Counted from the stretch's first letter, positions 1 through 13,645 are shown. The stretch is 64,000 nucleotides of DNA from Candidatus Bathyarchaeia archaeon (GCA_041447175.1 CP166960.1:1814519-1878518), one strand, 5' to 3'. Made by a program: numbers and translations. Notes: generated from the letters alone by a model not told the origin.

Positions 1-675
1 AAGTTTAGCGGACTACAAAAAGTAAGCCTCATTGATTACCCCGACAAAATCGCCTCCGTTCTTTTTACTCCCGGATGCAACCTGCGATGTGGATTCTGCC
101 ACAACTGGCGCATAGCGGTAGACCCCCAGCCGCCGTTTCTGCAGGAAGCAACCGCCGTGGAGCTGCTGGAAACACGGAAAAAATACGTTGACGCTGTTGT
201 CGTCACAGGCGGCGAACCCTGCATGCACAAAGAACTGCCCCGGTTTCTGGCAAAACTAAAGGAGCGGGGGTTCTTGGTGAAGCTGGACACGAACGGCTTT
301 TTCCCTGAAACTTTGGAGGAATGCCTGGGCAACGTGGATTATGTGGCGTTAGATGTGAAAACATCCCCCAAGAAGTACACGCGGCTGGGCGCATCCGATA
401 CAGTTGGACTGATGCGGGCAGTGGAAATGCTCAAAGCCGGCAAAGTCGCCTACGAGTTTCGCACCACAGTTGTTCCAGACCTAATCACGGCAGAGGACAT
501 GGAAGACATCGGCGAAGTGGTCAAAGGCGCCTCAACCGTTGCACTGCAACAGTTCATACCCCAAGACACCTTGGATAAGAGTTTCCAAGCCTTAAGACCA
601 TATGCCCCAGAGGTTATCGACGGCTTTGCAGAAAACATGCAAAAATATGCTCAAAAAGTAGTGGTACGCGTATAG
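1..675 (+). CDS. Radical SAM activating protein (anaerobic ribonucleotide reductase activase-like), 5' truncated
   Basis: The reading frame is open from base 1, so the true start lies left of the window and 224 codons remain. The radical SAM cysteine motif CxxxCxxC is seen as CNLRCGFC at codons 26-33, followed by the S-adenosylmethionine-binding TGGEP stretch near codon 70. The opening residues (SGLQKVSLIDYPDK) are typical of the family that activates anaerobic ribonucleoside-triphosphate reductase or pyruvate formate-lyase-like glycyl radical enzymes, using a 4Fe-4S cluster to generate a 5'-deoxyadenosyl radical. Little should be missing, since this motif lies close to the N-terminus in the family. 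The partner reductase is not visible. The family call is firm; the exact target is inferred. Confidence 0.85.
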   Translation, partial: KFSGLQKVSLIDYPDKIASVLFTPGCNLRCGFCHNWRIAVDPQPPFLQEATAVELLETRKKYVDAVVVTGGEPCMHKELPRFLAKLKERGFLVKLDTNGFFPETLEECLGNVDYVALDVKTSPKKYTRLGASDTVGLMRAVEMLKAGKVAYEFRTTVVPDLITAEDMEDIGEVVKGASTVALQQFIPQDTLDKSFQALRPYAPEVIDGFAENMQKYAQKVVVRV

Positions 676-6071: not shown

Positions 6072-6470
6072 ATGAAAGAAATCCCAATCCAAATTAAGAA
6101 CCTGACCGCAGGCGACCTCGTTCAGGTTGAGTGGACCGACGCCTCCATCGGCAAGAGCTTGAGCAACGGTTTAGGTGGCATTGATGTCCCCGTCAAAAGC
6201 TGGGGCATCTTCATCGGCGTCCTTGGGCAGAAGCGTCGGCATGTGATTTTGGCGCAGAACGCTTTCCGCTACAGCGATGGCCTCTACGACATTGACTACA
6301 CCGCCGTTCCCGTGCCATGGACTATCAGCGCTACCGTGTTGGCGAAGGGGCATGTTTCGGCGGAGGAAGCCAAAGTCCTGCTGCACAGCTTCACCATCAA
6401 CGAGAAATCCAAATCCGACGCGCACACGTTGGGGCGGTGTCTGCGTCAGCGGAGGCTACGGAATCATTGA
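6072..6470 (+). CDS. Hypothetical protein, first gene of the terminase cassette
   Basis: A 132-residue protein with a beta-rich N-terminal part (LTAGDLVQVEWTDAS, later VKSWGIFIGVLGQKRRHVI) that looks like a small barrel, then a mixed part (YDIDYTAVPVPWTISATVL) and a basic end (RCLRQRRLRNH). No catalytic motif was found and I do not recognise the family. Its stop at 6468-6470 overlaps the coding region of the membrane protein that follows, so it appears to be the head of a tightly packed five-gene unit ending with the ABC-ATPase/acetyltransferase at 9964. Base composition is like the host, unlike the AT-rich segment just upstream. Confidence 0.6.
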   Translation: MKEIPIQIKNLTAGDLVQVEWTDASIGKSLSNGLGGIDVPVKSWGIFIGVLGQKRRHVILAQNAFRYSDGLYDIDYTAVPVPWTISATVLAKGHVSAEEAKVLLHSFTINEKSKSDAHTLGRCLRQRRLRNH

Positions 6471-6724
6471 CGGATTGGGTTAAGCGGGCACTGACGCGGC
6501 GCAAAGGAGCCGACAAAGCAGGACAACAAACGGCAACAGAAGCGTTGCCAAGTGAGCGGCTAGTTTTAGGCGTCAAATTCGCCATCACCGTCACCTTTTG
6601 CCTCTCAGCCGTCGAAATCGCCCACCTTGCCCTGCTTGGCTGCTGGAACAGCGAGGTCTTTGCCGCCATCACAGGGCTATCAGGCACGATAATGGGGATT
6701 CTGATTTCACAAAGGACGGAGTGA
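6437..6724 (+). CDS. Two-helix membrane protein (holin-like topology)
   Basis: The real gene most likely starts at GTG 6437 or TTG 6467; the longer frame from 6317 reads Arg/Gly-rich nonsense across the previous gene. From 6437 it has 95 residues: a charged N-terminal third, then a hydrophobic helix (GVKFAITVTFCLSAVEIAHL), a short turn and a second helix (FAAITGLSGTIMGILI) ending SQRTE. Two closely spaced helices with a charged start recall small phage holins, but holins cannot be identified from topology alone. Its stop overlaps a possible start of the next gene (GTGA at 6721-6724). Confidence 0.5.
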   Translation: MSASAEATESLTDWVKRALTRRKGADKAGQQTATEALPSERLVLGVKFAITVTFCLSAVEIAHLALLGCWNSEVFAAITGLSGTIMGILISQRTE

Positions 6725-7086
6725 GGCGAACCTATTTGGAGCCTAATATTGATTCGATGCAGAAACCTATAGAGGGTAGGAGCCGACAAGCCCAACCAAA
6801 GCGTTTTCTGCAAAGAAGAATCACCAACTTGGCTGAAAAATTTGACGGCGATACCCAAGCCATCCGAGCCCAGCTTATTTTGGACCTTAAAAGCCTGCAG
6901 GAGCTTGCGGTAGAACAAGTTCGGTCAAAAGAAGGCAGAAAAACGTTGGAACATCAAAGCTGGGCAAAACTAGCAACTTACATCAGCCAAGTCATCAACG
7001 GCATAACCAAAACCTACGACGTAACCCAAATCAAAACCGAACTGGACCAACTCAAAAAAGCCATAGGAGAACTCGAGAAGCAATGA
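6721..7086 (+). CDS. Small helical protein upstream of TerL (possible small terminase-like partner)
   Basis: A 121-residue helical protein if read from GTG 6721; alternatives are ATG 6757 (110 residues) and TTG 6829. Residues from about 25 on are two or three long charged helices (QRRITNLAEKF, QLILDLKSLQEL, IKTELDQLKKAIGELEKQ). Position directly before and overlapping (ATGA) the terminase large subunit gene is where phages encode TerS, but no helix-turn-helix is obvious, so this is only suggestive. The first 20 codons coincide with a copy of the dispersed element found at 26138 and 53011, so the N-terminus may have been recruited from, or invaded by, a repeat. Confidence 0.5.
   Translation: MRRTYLEPNIDSMQKPIEGRSRQAQPKRFLQRRITNLAEKFDGDTQAIRAQLILDLKSLQELAVEQVRSKEGRKTLEHQSWAKLATYISQVINGITKTYDVTQIKTELDQLKKAIGELEKQ
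6729..6780 (+). repeat. Dispersed element, copy 1
   Basis: Shares CCTATTTGGA, GATGCAG and CCTATAGAGGG with the element at 53011-53065, in the same order. It begins 5 bases after the stop of the two-helix membrane protein gene and lies inside the next reading frame. The tail CCTATAGAGGGTAGG can fold as CCTA/TAGG. It is the most divergent of the three copies. Confidence 0.65.
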
Positions 7087-8522
7087 CCATGGCACAGTTC
7101 CAACGGGAAATCACGCGGTGCAAACAGAAAGCCGAAAAAGCCGCTCAAAAACAGAAACAAACCTACCCCAAAGACCCCGTGCAGTTCTGCAAAGAAACCT
7201 TAGGCTTCAACCCCACCTCCTACCAAACCGCGCTCATCAGGCAGTTTGAAGAAAACCAATTCGTCGCGGCAAGGTGGGCAAGACAAACAGGCAAAAGCCA
7301 CACCATAAGCGCCCTGCTCCTCCACTTTGCGCTTACCAACCCAAACAGCAACATAGGCATCTTTGGTCCCAGCTGGAGACAAACCAAACTCATAATCAAA
7401 CACATCAACGGCTTCCTCAAAAAACTCCCCACCGAAAACAAAAAACCCCAAAAAACCGCCGTCGCCCTCACCAACGGCAGCACCATCGAAGCATACCCCA
7501 ACAACCCCGAAACCATCCGCGGACCCAAACTCCACATCGTCTACGCCGACGAATTCAACTTCATCCCCAACGACGAAGAACTCTACGACGCCAGCCTCTT
7601 CACGCTGGGCACAACCGACGGCAAATTCATCTGCACCAGCACCCCCTGGCGCACCGACAGCATATTCCACAAAATCTTTCACGACACAGCATACGAGGAT
7701 TACGCCAAAAGCCACGTAACATGGCAACAAGCCGTCGAACCCAACGGTCCCCTCAAGCACAAAATCCTTGAACGCATCAAACGACAACTCGAAAGCGACC
7801 CCGCAAGGTGGAAGCGGGAAATGGAGGCGGATTGGGCAGAGAACCAGAACGCGTGGCTTAGTCAAGCCTTAATCACCAGCTGCATTGACCAAGCCTTGGA
7901 GTACACCAGTTTTGAGCGAGCCGCCAAGGGCTGCTTCTATGCGGGTTTGGATTTGGGCAAACACCAAGACCACAGCGTCCTAGCCATAATCCACGCCGAA
8001 AACAGCCAGCTGCAACTGGCGCATATGCATCGGTTCCCGCTGGGCACACCGTACGCAAGCGTAATTGGCTACGTCAAAACGCTTAACGACCGATGGCAAA
8101 CCCTCCAAAGCGTCTTTGTGGACTGCAGCGGCGTAGGCGACTACATCGCCGAAGACATGCAAAACGCAGGCTTAGACAACGTAGAGGGCATCAAATTCAC
8201 GTTGGAATCTAAACAGGAGATGGCACAGCACCTCAAACAAGCCATGACAGAAAAACGCCTATACATACCATACGACGGAGAGCTTATTGCGGAACTTAAC
8301 GTTGAACAGTACGAGTTGTCCAAGGAAGGCAAAACCAAGTTTAGCCATCCGCAGGGCACACATGACGACCGTTTCTGGGCACTCGCATTGGCAGCTTACG
8401 CCACAAGAGTTGAGCCCGCCCCGCAGTTGTGGGTGGTTGCCAAAACCGCAAACACAGGCAAAACGCGGCTGCAAAAACTTCGCCACCAACGCGCCAAACA
8501 CAAAACACAAGGGGAAACCTGA
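7083..8522 (+). CDS. Terminase large subunit-like ATPase/nuclease
   Basis: A 479-residue protein with both TerL domains. The packaging ATPase part has a Walker A-like RQTGKS (67-72), Walker B HIVYADE (151-157, Asp-Glu) and the coupling motif CTSTPW (184-189). The RNase H-fold nuclease part has AGLDLG (Asp290), VFVDCSG (Asp347) and HDDRFW (Asp428/429), the three acidic sites expected for Mg2+-dependent cleavage. In head-tailed viruses TerL pumps DNA into a procapsid and cuts it. Here it is preceded by a small helical protein (ATGA overlap) and followed at once by an ABC-ATPase/GNAT fusion, with no portal, protease or capsid gene nearby. Third-position C-rich codon use matches host genes, so it is not a recent arrival. 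Confidence 0.85.
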   Translation: MTMAQFQREITRCKQKAEKAAQKQKQTYPKDPVQFCKETLGFNPTSYQTALIRQFEENQFVAARWARQTGKSHTISALLLHFALTNPNSNIGIFGPSWRQTKLIIKHINGFLKKLPTENKKPQKTAVALTNGSTIEAYPNNPETIRGPKLHIVYADEFNFIPNDEELYDASLFTLGTTDGKFICTSTPWRTDSIFHKIFHDTAYEDYAKSHVTWQQAVEPNGPLKHKILERIKRQLESDPARWKREMEADWAENQNAWLSQALITSCIDQALEYTSFERAAKGCFYAGLDLGKHQDHSVLAIIHAENSQLQLAHMHRFPLGTPYASVIGYVKTLNDRWQTLQSVFVDCSGVGDYIAEDMQNAGLDNVEGIKFTLESKQEMAQHLKQAMTEKRLYIPYDGELIAELNVEQYELSKEGKTKFSHPQGTHDDRFWALALAAYATRVEPAPQLWVVAKTANTGKTRLQKLRHQRAKHKTQGET

Positions 8523-9964
8523 TGACCCGCCGCAAAGAAACCCTTCAAGTCACCAAACTCAAACGGGTCTACAACCGCGCAAAGGGCACATTCTGCTTTG
8601 ACATCAGCTACCAAACCGCACCTGCTCAACGTAGCCAACGCACACGGGAAGTGGCGGAAGCGTTTGGACTGGGCGAAGACACAACCCAGCAGTTCACCCT
8701 CTACGACAACGTGCAGCTAAAAATCCGCCCAACCGACATCGTGCTCATCACCGGAGACAGCGGCAGCGGAAAATCCGCCCTTCTCAAAGCCCTCAAAGCC
8801 GACCTAGGCACCGAAGCCCAGGACGCCAAAGACCTCAACATCAAACCCGACACGCCCATCATCGAGACTGTCGGCGAAACCACCACCCGCGCCCTGGAAG
8901 TTCTCAGCAAAGTCGGCTTAAATGATGCCTTCCTGTTTCTGCGCAGCTATGCGGAACTGAGTGATGGCCAGAAACACCGTTACCAAATCGCAAGCTTAGC
9001 CCAGACCAGCGCGCAGTGGTGGATTTTGGATGAATTCACAAGCACACTGGACCGGGACACCGCCAAAATTGTTGCCTATAACCTTCAACGCCTCGCCAGA
9101 GCGCAGGGAAAAGCGGTTATAGCCGCGACCACTCACGCGGATTTGCTGCGGGATTTGGTACCCAACGTGCACATCCACAAACGCTACGGCAAACAAGTCA
9201 CCGTCCGCTACCACCCCAACGCCAAAGCCAAAACGTGCAGCTTAACCCGCCAAATGCACGTCGAGCAGGGCACAACCACAGACTACAAAGCCCTCAGCCC
9301 ATTCCATTACCGAACGGGGCGTTTGCCGCCTTCACGCAACATTTTTGTCCTCAAACGCAAAGCGGAACTCTGCGGCGTCATCGTGTACAGTTATCCGTCG
9401 CCGATGTGTTTTGGACGCAGCAAAGCTTGGAGGGGCACGTTCACAGAGTTGCAGCAGCAAGTGAGTATAATTAGCCGTGTTGTGGTGCACCCCAAGTACC
9501 GCAGCATTGGCTTAGGCGAAAAAATCATCCACGAAACCCTACCTATCTGCGGCACACCCTACGCCGAAGCCGTCGCGGTTATGGCAAAATATAACCCGTT
9601 TTTTGAGAAAGCAGGCATGCAAAAAACCGCTCAAAGCCAACCCCACCCCGCCGTCACCAAAGCTCTGGCGCAACTGCAGTCGCTTGGATTTGACGCTGCA
9701 TTGTTGTCCAGCGAAAGCCACAACCAACAGCGGCTCAACCAAATCGGCACACAACCTGTCCTCGAGGTGCTACAGGAACTGTCTAGGCTAAATGGCGCGG
9801 TACGCAAACGCATCGCGAACCTCACCAACGTTTACCCAAAGCATGAGGAATTTGTCAACAAAATCGGCAGCCTTGACGCTGGGGGTTTGGCGAAAGTTTT
9901 GAAGCGGCTGAGTTTTGCGGCGCAAACCAAGGTTTACCTATTTTGGGCGGGGAGCCAACTGTGA
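8522..9964 (+). CDS. ABC-type ATPase fused to a GNAT acetyltransferase domain
   Basis: A 480-residue protein from ATG 8522, which overlaps the terL stop; the longer frame from 8429 lies inside terL. The ATPase half has Walker A GDSGSGKS (78-85), signature LSDGQ (146-150), Walker B WWILDEF (166-172) and the switch His in TTHADL (His205). The second half has a GNAT acetyl-CoA site, VVVHPKYRSIGLGEKII at about 320-336. There are no membrane segments, so it is not a transporter. Archaea carry a known family of ABC ATPases fused to a predicted acetyltransferase (COG2401); its role is not established to my knowledge. The stop-start overlap with the terminase suggests they act together. Confidence 0.82.
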   Translation: MTRRKETLQVTKLKRVYNRAKGTFCFDISYQTAPAQRSQRTREVAEAFGLGEDTTQQFTLYDNVQLKIRPTDIVLITGDSGSGKSALLKALKADLGTEAQDAKDLNIKPDTPIIETVGETTTRALEVLSKVGLNDAFLFLRSYAELSDGQKHRYQIASLAQTSAQWWILDEFTSTLDRDTAKIVAYNLQRLARAQGKAVIAATTHADLLRDLVPNVHIHKRYGKQVTVRYHPNAKAKTCSLTRQMHVEQGTTTDYKALSPFHYRTGRLPPSRNIFVLKRKAELCGVIVYSYPSPMCFGRSKAWRGTFTELQQQVSIISRVVVHPKYRSIGLGEKIIHETLPICGTPYAEAVAVMAKYNPFFEKAGMQKTAQSQPHPAVTKALAQLQSLGFDAALLSSESHNQQRLNQIGTQPVLEVLQELSRLNGAVRKRIANLTNVYPKHEEFVNKIGSLDAGGLAKVLKRLSFAAQTKVYLFWAGSQL

Positions 9965-10174
9965 AGCGTTGTTTGGGGTTTGCGGCAGAGTTTGGTTGAG
10001 CAGGGTTTGGGTTTGGTTTAGAAGTTCCTCTTGCAGGGCGTTGTACTGTTCAAGTTGGGGGATGTTTGGGGTTTGCAGGGTTTGGGTAAACACAACGGTT
10101 GCATAGTTTATCACGATGCAGGAAAAGATGACGGCGGATGTGATGAGTAGCAGGGTTGATAGGTTTGTCTGCAT
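9938..10174 (-). CDS. Small single-helix membrane protein, Asn/Gln-rich tail (copy A)
   Basis: A 78-residue protein: a hydrophobic N-terminal helix at 8-30 (TLLLITSAVIFSCIVINYAT) followed by a polar tail rich in Gln, Asn, Thr and Pro with several NQT sequons that could be glycosylated outside the cell. GGAG lies 6 bases before the ATG. It is a paralogue of the frame at 10401-10622. The N-terminal helix resembles that of pilin-like or tail-anchored surface peptides, but no signal peptidase site is evident. Its end overlaps the 3' end of the ABC/GNAT gene by 27 bases, convergently. Confidence 0.6.
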   Translation of the reverse strand: MQTNLSTLLLITSAVIFSCIVINYATVVFTQTLQTPNIPQLEQYNALQEELLNQTQTLLNQTLPQTPNNASQLAPRPK

Positions 10175-10400: not shown

Positions 10401-10622
10401 TCAGGGGCTTGGAAGGGGCGTTTGTTGAGTTTGCGGAAGAGTCTGGTTGAAAAGGGAGTCCGTCTGGTTCAACACCGAATCCTCCAACGCCCTAAGCCGA
10501 TCCAGCTGCGGGATGTTACTGGTCTGCAAAGCACTTTGAACCACAACCACTGCATAATCGATGACAACACAGGTGAGAATAACTGCAGAAGTTAACAGCA
10601 GCAAAGTGGCGACCGAAGTTTG
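10401..10622 (-). pseudogene. Paralogue of the 9938 small membrane protein with its start codon lost
   Basis: The frame reads QTSVATLLLLTSAVIL and then LQTSNIPQLDRLRALED, LNQTDSLFNQTLPQT, closely matching the 78-residue protein at 9938-10174 (QTNLSTLLLITSAVIF, LQTPNIPQL). A good ribosome binding site (GGAGAAGG) is in the same position, but where the relative has ATGCAG this copy has TAGCAA, so the start is a stop codon (10623-10625). Translation could begin only at an internal TTG (10604), without a matching ribosome binding site. It is probably decaying, or rarely expressed. Confidence 0.6.
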
Positions 10623-10937: not shown

Positions 10938-12041
10938 TTGAAAAGCATAAACGAGCTTGGATTTAAACAGCTTTTCCCCATACAAGCTCAAGCCATCTTG
11001 CCCCTGCTTGAAGGCAAAGACGTCATCGGGCAAGCCCAAACCGGAACCGGCAAAACCGCTGCGTTCGGCGTGCCCATGGTAGAAAGATTAGACCCCAGCA
11101 TCAGAAAAGTTCAGGGCTTAGTTTTGGTGCCTACACGCGAACTTGCCATGCAAGTTGCAAACAACATGCACCTGTTTGCTAAATACAAAAAACTACGCGT
11201 GCTGCCCGTTTACGGCGGAGCCTCCATGGAAAGGCAAATCCGCGAATTATCCAACGGCGCCCAAATCGTGGTTGGTACCCCGGGACGCGTAATTGACCTG
11301 TTGGAACGCCGCGTGCTGAACTTGGCTTCGGTGAAGGTTCTGGTTTTGGATGAAGCGGACCGCATGTTGGACATGGGTTTCATCGATGACATCACCTTCA
11401 TTTTGTCGCGGGCGCCCTCAACACGGCAGACTAGCCTGTTTAGTGCAACCATCGACAAGACGGTCATGAAGGTCTGTAACCGCTACATGAAGAACCCCGT
11501 GAAAATCTTTGTTAGCAAAGACGAGATTGGGGTGACGCAGATGAAGCAGTACTACAAGATTGTTAATCAGGGCGCCAAATTTGATGCCCTATGCACCATA
11601 CTGCATGACAGCGAAGTTGACCGCGCCATTGTGTTTTGCAGGACGCGTCATGAAACCAGCAAGGTCGCGGATAAGCTTGCGAAGAAGGGTTATCGAGCGC
11701 AGGCGTTGCATGCGGGGTATACGCAGCCTCAGCGGGAACGTGCCATAAACGCGTTTCGTGCAGGAAAACTGAATCTGCTGGTTGCCACGGATGTGGCTGC
11801 TAGGGGACTGGACATTGACGGCATTACGCATATAATCAACTTTGATGTCCCTGAGGACCCGTTGGTGTATTTCCACCGTGTAGGCAGAACTGCGCGGAAA
11901 GGTTCGGACGGCACAGCCATCACTTTAGTTAGTTATGGCGAGATGAGCAATTTTGACAGCATCAAATCCATAACCAAAACCAAAATTGAGGTTATGGATA
12001 CGGTTTGCAGTCAGGATTCGCCTGTTGTGGGCTTTTTTTAA
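10938..12041 (+). CDS. DEAD-box ATP-dependent RNA helicase
   Basis: A helicase of 367 residues from TTG 10938, with Q-motif FPIQAQAI (13-20), Walker A AQTGTGKT (33-40), DEAD (138-141), SAT (169-171) and HRVGRTAR near 315. It unwinds short RNA duplexes in RNA folding, ribosome assembly or decay. The frame stays open back to 10851 and the codons before the TTG read FQDLPLSREVL, exactly the conserved start of this family, yet that stretch has no ATG, GTG or TTG. The protein therefore probably begins upstream at a non-standard codon, such as ATC at 10881 next to a GGAG, or the region contains an error. There is no long C-terminal tail. Confidence 0.9.
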   Translation: MKSINELGFKQLFPIQAQAILPLLEGKDVIGQAQTGTGKTAAFGVPMVERLDPSIRKVQGLVLVPTRELAMQVANNMHLFAKYKKLRVLPVYGGASMERQIRELSNGAQIVVGTPGRVIDLLERRVLNLASVKVLVLDEADRMLDMGFIDDITFILSRAPSTRQTSLFSATIDKTVMKVCNRYMKNPVKIFVSKDEIGVTQMKQYYKIVNQGAKFDALCTILHDSEVDRAIVFCRTRHETSKVADKLAKKGYRAQALHAGYTQPQRERAINAFRAGKLNLLVATDVAARGLDIDGITHIINFDVPEDPLVYFHRVGRTARKGSDGTAITLVSYGEMSNFDSIKSITKTKIEVMDTVCSQDSPVVGFF

Positions 12042-12367: not shown

Positions 12368-13645
12368 TTAGAGTTTGTCGGTTGCAGAAACATCCATCAT
12401 GGTCAAGCCCGAGGCAGGTTTCGGGTAAAAGTCGGTGGATTTCTCGGGGAGACGAGCTCTTTTTTGAGCAATTTCCCATACTACCTTTGGACTGATGGAG
12501 TTAACAAGGAAAGCCAGTTTGGCTTCACCGCTGTCGATTTTATCCATTGCAGTCCGCATAGAACGCTCATAAAGAATGTCTTCCTCAATTTTCAGCTCAC
12601 CAGTTTTCATCATGGTGTTGAAAACAACGTCTTTGAGGATGACCACATCAAGGATGTGTTCTAAGTTGGATTCGTTTAAAGCAGCAAGTTTTGCAACTTG
12701 TTGTTCATCTCTCAAAAACAAACCGTAAGCCTTTGTCCCATCGTAGATGCAGAAAGCATGTTCAGATTTATGCTTCTTCAGGTAACCTTCCATTACACTG
12801 ACTTTGGGACTTAACTCTGAAATCTCAAAAAACGAAGCGAGCGCCTCAATGGTTTCTATAGTTAATTCAAATCGGCGCAGCAGCCTGTGAGTAGGCAATA
12901 CAACTAACCCCTCATCTTGAACCGGCACCATGTAGCTCATGTGGAAGTTAAACGCTGAATCCTCCGTCCACTCCACCTGACTTCGACGTTCATCACGATA
13001 AGCCAGAGCACTCTCATATCGGTGGTGCCCATCCGTGATAACCAAGGTTTTGCTTTCCATAGCCATCTGCACCAACGCAATTTTTTCAGGGTCCGTTACA
13101 CACCAAAGTTTGTGGCGTACCCGCAGCTCATCCTCCACCTCCATGTCTGGCGGCGTTTTGGCAACTTCACGGAGAAACTCAACGGTCACTTTTTCAGGGT
13201 CCGAGTAAATCAGAAACACCGGCTCAAGGTCCTTCTGAATTGTCCGCAGCATGTTAAGGCGGTCAGCTTTGGGCGCTGAATAGGTGGTTTCGTGAGGGAA
13301 CACTAGACCTTCGTTGTAGGGATACAGCCTCAACGCGGCAATTAATCCCGTGCGCGTACAGTTTTTGCCGTCTAAACGGAATTCTTGGCGGCACACGAAA
13401 ATTGCGGGTTCTTCATCTTTAGCCAGTACGTGCTCGTTTAGCCATTCGTAGATGCGTTGATGCACAGTTTGATAGCGGTTCTCTTCGATGGGCAAAATCA
13501 GGCGACAATAATTGTAGGGAGACTTCTCATAGTACTCCCGTTGCATATCTTGATTAATTTTGTCGTAGGGCTGAGTAATCAGGGACTTAAGAGCCCCTGC
13601 TTTTTCAGTATATCGAATGGCTTTGAAGGGTCGAACATCAACCAT
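12368..13645 (-). CDS. DUF1015 family protein in a serine operon
   Basis: A 425-residue DUF1015 protein. Signature segments are RPFKAIRY at the start, QPYDKI (25-30), PHETT (117-121) and TDGHHRYESAL (204-214). The family is widespread in bacteria and archaea and often lies beside serA; its reaction is not known to me. Here it is the last gene after an aminotransferase and SerA, 10 bases after the SerA stop, so a role in serine or phosphoserine metabolism is likely. The dedicated phosphoserine phosphatase SerB is absent from the operon, and DUF1015 is a candidate for that or a related step, which is inference. ATG start. Confidence 0.85.
   Translation of the reverse strand: MVDVRPFKAIRYTEKAGALKSLITQPYDKINQDMQREYYEKSPYNYCRLILPIEENRYQTVHQRIYEWLNEHVLAKDEEPAIFVCRQEFRLDGKNCTRTGLIAALRLYPYNEGLVFPHETTYSAPKADRLNMLRTIQKDLEPVFLIYSDPEKVTVEFLREVAKTPPDMEVEDELRVRHKLWCVTDPEKIALVQMAMESKTLVITDGHHRYESALAYRDERRSQVEWTEDSAFNFHMSYMVPVQDEGLVVLPTHRLLRRFELTIETIEALASFFEISELSPKVSVMEGYLKKHKSEHAFCIYDGTKAYGLFLRDEQQVAKLAALNESNLEHILDVVILKDVVFNTMMKTGELKIEEDILYERSMRTAMDKIDSGEAKLAFLVNSISPKVVWEIAQKRARLPEKSTDFYPKPASGLTMMDVSATDKL

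Follow-up and report, generated by a model that had tools for sequence, protein, structure and literature searches.

We suggest that the five-gene cassette at positions 6072-9964 of a 64,000-nucleotide stretch of Candidatus Bathyarchaeia archaeon DNA (the window, genome 1,814,519-1,878,518 of a single 2.73 Mb contig) is probably the packaging motor of a vertically inherited, domesticated tailed virus, a candidate GTA-like viriform. The full virion gene set has almost certainly been retained vertically at a fixed locus, and its genes are under purifying selection. A DNA-transfer machine appears, from the sequence, to be the best reading of the cassette.

The packaging cassette

All five frames of the cassette are intact and joined by the junctions TTGA, GTGA, ATGA and TGATGA (Table 1), so the packed frames with stop-start overlaps described in an earlier sequence-only reading of this DNA were recovered. 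TerL matched Terminase_6N (PF03237, E 1.2e-16) and the PHROG terminase families (1.8e-43). In an alignment of 19 sequences its residues R64, Q68, G70, K71, D156, E157 and S186-T187-P188 were invariant, as were the nuclease residues D290, D347 and D428/D429, in agreement with the intact Walker and nuclease sites proposed by that reading. The ABC-ATPase fused to GNAT that it had placed directly after TerL is likewise supported: the ABC part has the P-loop, the LSDGQ signature and the LDEF Walker B, and a phage relative is annotated as 'MK0520 protein, ABC-type ATPase fused to a predicted ...'. MK0520-like proteins are known from some large phages, and ABC/GNAT is found directly 3' of TerL in the mobile relatives too.

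Table 1. Annotated genes of the window, with positions counted from its first base
Feature	Positions	Strand	Length	Assignment	Basis
nrdG (anaerobic RNR activase)	1..675	+		host gene; end of inverted block	
P1	6072..6470	+	132 aa	conserved protein of virion/packaging operon	predicted SH3/Sm-like beta barrel
Small membrane protein	6467..6724	+	about 85 aa	TTG start overlaps P1 stop	sequence
TerS-like helical protein	6721..7086	+	121 aa		position directly before TerL, alignment, HTH profile scan
TerL (terminase large subunit)	7083..8522	+	479 aa		ATPase and nuclease residues invariant
ABC ATPase fused to GNAT acetyltransferase domain (MK0520-like)	8522..9964	+	480 aa		
DEAD-box helicase	10938..12041	+		host gene; right flank of locus in genus	
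DUF1015-type gene	12368..13645	-		host gene; right flank	

P1 has 23 invariant columns in an alignment of 60 homologs and a dN/dS of 0.04-0.06 within the genus. Its AlphaFold2 model (mean pLDDT 78.6) gave no significant match to the PDB (best E 0.012), and no specific fold was assigned beyond the SH3/Sm-like barrel. The small membrane protein has homologs in the same position in the provirus of this genome, described below, and in relatives. Two paralogous small membrane proteins are encoded after the cassette on the - strand (window 9938-10174 and 10401-10604); a similar 93-aa protein adjoins the DEAD helicase in G062 (L250:5556).

Codon use of the cassette is host-like (r = 0.93), as the sequence-only reading had stated, yet the mobile provirus matches the host about equally (0.92), and we set codon use aside as a weak sign of domestication.

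Virion genes to the left of the window

Using provirus proteins as probes, we detected a second complete virion set at genome 1,795,119-1,810,175 on the - strand, 10.4-25 kb upstream of the cassette on the opposite strand and 4.3-19.4 kb to the left of the first base of the window. The protease gene starts at 1,810,175, 10.4 kb from the cassette start at 1,820,590; the genes for cement protein, capsid, portal and tail come next, ending at 1,795,119. The HK97-type capsid (PF05065, 1.4e-8), the cement protein (PF09956, 7e-12) and the tail tube (PF18906, 8e-19) are backed by Pfam and PHROGs; the portal match (PF04860, 5e-6) is below the cut-off. From end to end the virion and packaging parts, interrupted by host genes, cover about 29 kb. 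The window has only 6 kb upstream of the cassette, and the virion genes were therefore invisible to the sequence-only reading. Its statement that no portal, protease, capsid or tail gene lies within at least 10 kb was literally true by about 400 bp and misleading; its notion of a retained, functional-looking unit that is no prophage scrap stands, but not the part that left this unit without virion genes.

A secreted Zn-dependent phospholipase C-like gene (genome 1,803,391-1,804,164) lies between the portal and head-tail genes. It is present in many fixed loci (L085, L089, L092, L101, L230, L237, L259 and L250), and no copy turned up in the mobile proviruses. The copy of this genome lacks its N-terminus. 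It could be a release gene.

Comparison with the same genus explains the arrangement. The locus is in one piece in G059 and G061, running from protease to tail and then from P1 to ABC/GNAT. Portal and capsid genes in the locus of close relatives had been named earlier as evidence against a cassette standing apart from virion genes; they are present there, contiguous in G059 and G061 and with deletions in G060, which has lost several tail genes. In relatives the left flank is nrdG-nrdD-nrdR-response regulator (G059 has no response regulator at the locus, and the G061 stretch examined begins at the response regulator), and the right flank is the DEAD helicase and DUF1015, the helicase being the same neighbour in G060, G061, G059 and G063. 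In the present genome (G000 of the genome set) the segment bounded by nrdG and the tail gene has the opposite orientation to that in G059 and G061, and the genes outward of nrdG in G059 and G060 (183, 185, 244, 252 and 490 aa) flank the tail gene. The inverted block nrdG-nrdD-nrdR-response regulator-virion genes continues leftward beyond the window. A single inversion parted the packaging and virion halves, and it alone suffices to explain the apparent terminase cassette without virion genes. The G000 virion genes are all intact despite the inversion.

Mobile relatives

We detected a provirus at 1.51-1.54 Mb of the same genome, which holds the second copy of TerL (1.525 Mb). It encodes protease, cement, capsid, portal and tail, then five homologs of the cassette genes in the same order, and an integrase 12 kb further on. 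From the five homologs after the tail genes, the cassette is recognised as the closing (3') segment of a late operon of the tailed-virus type. The same order recurs in mobile relatives in these genomes and in IMG/VR, one of them published as Bathyarchaeia tailed provirus 1 (BATPV1, JAAKEZ010000002_pro; PMC11705971), with the TerL match G003:C37 (L128) on the BATPV1 contig. BATPV1 and the 1.51-1.54 Mb provirus share with the fixed module the order protease-cement-capsid-portal-tail-P1-TM-TerS-TerL-ABC/GNAT; unlike the fixed module they are mobile, their capsids fall outside the fixed clade, and the copy in this genome has an integrase. No close relative was found among GenBank phages, where the best TerL match was 29.5% (Thermus phage Riverbug).

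The TerL of the 1.525 Mb provirus (L004/L005) and that of IMG/VR contig 2878436219_000004 (L228) show no difference over the aligned stretch. A third, divergent TerL near the contig end (genome 2,721,395-2,733,033, L007), with ABC-like, protease-like and capsid-like genes, is another virus type in the same genome.

Distribution of the fixed locus

The sequences compared were mostly metagenome-assembled. The capsid of the clade was found in 28 of 91 genomes of one Bathyarchaeial family, in 11 genera; outside the family it was not found, matches in other families of the order being at most 50% identical. Its absence from the other 63 family genomes, with some genomes incomplete, shows the module to be dispensable. 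In about 20 of the 28 genomes the set lies beside nrdR and/or response regulator/p115/RHH. These loci also have a ribbon-helix-helix gene, divergent from the protease gene, and a conserved gene of 115 aa, and in six genera the response regulator and the virion operon are separated by a PAS/GAF histidine kinase of 1050-1300 aa. Loci with this kinase are L230, L234, L235, L236, L237, L101, L100, L260, L261 and L262.

In most g5 genomes the set is relocated with the ribbon-helix-helix gene kept, and eight g5 genomes were counted as fixed by capsid clade rather than position. In g5 and g3 the parts are 45-180 kb apart or on different contigs, mostly still intact (capsid-TerL distance 180 kb in G030 and 92 kb in G026; different contigs in G032). 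Loss and damage were also detected. G062, of the same genus, has lost the set, and the flanks are now close together; G049 has broken remnants of protease, p467 and ABC/GNAT with frameshifts; and G070 has an intact lone prohead-protease-like gene beside nrdR (L244:12462-13616), with no other virion gene. Damage affects the capsid N-terminus and protease in G004, the tail genes (missing) in G060 and TerL (frameshifted) in G082, and host genes are inserted among the virion genes in G000 and G052.

Vertical inheritance and TerL exchange

The 28 fixed-locus capsids form one clade (92/93) with no mobile virus inside. Genus labels on this tree require 11 changes, the minimum, each genus being together; capsids of the mobile proviruses in these genomes intermingle instead (12 label changes vs a minimum of 7). 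Against a host tree built from EF-2 alone, with the other paralog copy used instead of the first match in five genomes, the common splits were 13/24 for capsid, 10/24 for portal, 13/23 for protease, 6/11 for tube, 9/15 for p467 and 7/13 for tail, with about 0.2 and at most 3 for random labels. g17 is placed differently in the capsid and EF-2 trees. Among close relatives dN/dS of virion and packaging genes was mostly 0.02-0.2, similar to or somewhat above that of neighbouring host genes and rough for g1 pairs, where synonymous changes are near saturation. The exceptions were TerS, TM, TerL and ABC/GNAT in single pairs (gene replaced or low dS), a few small tail genes and the damaged G004 protease.

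TerL, unlike the capsid, has been swapped at several of the fixed loci, evidence of contact with other viruses or elements; we dropped it as a vertical marker for this reason and used capsid, portal and protease. A TerL type 35-39% identical substitutes in G063, G031, G051, G052 and G057, and other replacement types were found in G069 and G082. The window's own TerL is a member of the vertical lineage. P1 and ABC/GNAT remain close in the replaced-TerL loci L253, L269, L232, L081 and L261, and the replacement TerLs cluster across genera, contrary to the host tree.

The TerS-like protein of the window is missing an N-terminal HTH region, which is present in many viral homologs. An HTH-less TerS has been proposed as a mark of GTA from RcGTA gp1 vs its HTH-bearing viral relatives (PMC6854486), and the TerS of the fixed loci resembles gp1 in this feature: the profile scan found HTH missing in 22 of 24 fixed cassettes. 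Viral relatives have the same feature, since virus contigs from the same TerL clade lack the HTH as well, and we rejected it as non-discriminating.

Alternative explanations

A defective provirus, vertically inherited, functionless and slowly decaying, would account for the deletions and damaged copies in G004, G060, G049 and G070 and for the host genes between virion genes in G000 and G052. We consider it unlikely, as dN/dS stays low across many genera, the G000 genes are all intact even after the inversion, and the frameshifts and loss in a real remnant (G049) indicate that decay is visible once selection ends. The conservation of TerL, portal, capsid, protease and cement, none of which a tail-only weapon needs, similarly makes it quite improbable that the particle is kept to kill competitors or deliver proteins rather than DNA, even if vertical retention suits any host benefit and the tail genes are retained.

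Repeated acquisition of an active temperate virus with a constant integration site next to nrdR would agree with the same-order mobile relatives in these genomes and IMG/VR. An integrase is a criterion of such a provirus, and no tyrosine integrase (PF00589) matched inside the module in 14 genomes; the nearest integrases lie 5-8 kb past ABC/GNAT, only in G065 and G048, at differing positions and orientations. Capsid, portal and protease trees that track the host, parts scattered along the chromosome in g3 and g5, and host nrd genes between the halves in G000 also make this origin very unlikely. Least probable of all, and hardly credible to us, is the stand-alone TerL-based DNA-processing or anti-virus unit of the sequence-only reading. 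The cassette does lie apart from the virion genes in its own genome, but this separation is a local inversion, the G059 and G061 loci are contiguous, and in related mobile viruses these five genes close the late operon. The anti-virus role found no support in any specific defence family, PADLOC giving generic ABC-ATPase matches only, and to the ABC/GNAT protein only.

A candidate GTA-like viriform

The criteria for GTA (PMC9662315) include caudoviricete-derived proteins, full endogenisation, often in several loci, and a mostly vertical, host-congruent phylogeny; further ones are packaging of mostly random host DNA, own genes that are not fully packageable, and delivery to other cells. We propose candidate GTA status because of what was found under the three that are readable from a genome: caudoviricete-derived capsid, cement, tail tube and TerL matches; a fixed locus, split in G000 and scattered in g3/g5, with no integrase in the module; and vertical inheritance by tree comparison, except for the TerL exchange in several loci. 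In a more specific form, which we favour with less assurance, the genes would represent a GTA lineage ancestral to the whole Bathyarchaeial family, independently domesticated from a Bathyarchaeial tailed virus, two-component-linked and still making particles of random host DNA.

A tailed virus would have entered the ancestor of the family, shed its mobility genes and then been passed on vertically. Host signals would release the virion operon beside nrdR, with control suggested by gene position for the divergent ribbon-helix-helix gene and the neighbouring response regulator, together with the histidine kinase in some genera. HK97-type heads, portal and tails would then assemble, the TerS-like protein and TerL of the cassette would load DNA, and ABC/GNAT and P1 may help packaging or assembly. 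The cargo would be mostly host chromosome, as the gene set has ceased to be an excisable replicon, and the particles, once released, could carry DNA to related cells.

Like the GTA viriforms RcGTA, BaGTA and BhGTA (PMC9662315), the module consists of endogenised tailed-virus genes, often in several loci, that co-diversify with the host; unlike them, it has an archaeal host, a Bathyarchaeial virus origin and ABC/GNAT after TerL, and its DNA transfer is a proposed one. RcGTA production is under a phosphorelay, according to a reference listed in PMC11841831. The Methanococcus voltae GTA, as cited in PMC11841831, is also archaeal and of the tailed-particle type; its host is a methanogen and it was shown by experiment, while the Bathyarchaeia module is a candidate from genome comparison. 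Putative domesticated Caudovirales loci with a virion module and without att sites or replication genes were suggested to be GTA-like in Thaumarchaeota from gene content (PMC6563490). The three Thaumarchaeota loci are highly divergent from each other, whereas in the Bathyarchaeia the locus is fixed across 11 genera and its trees agree with that of the host. Our literature search found no report of GTA in Bathyarchaeia.

GTAs are well documented in a few bacteria and one methanogen. For a GTA lineage in archaea, strong genomic evidence comes from this virion locus, fixed and congruent with the host across 11 genera in an uncultured archaeal group, and the mobile relatives of its ancestor in the same genomes open the domestication to side-by-side study.
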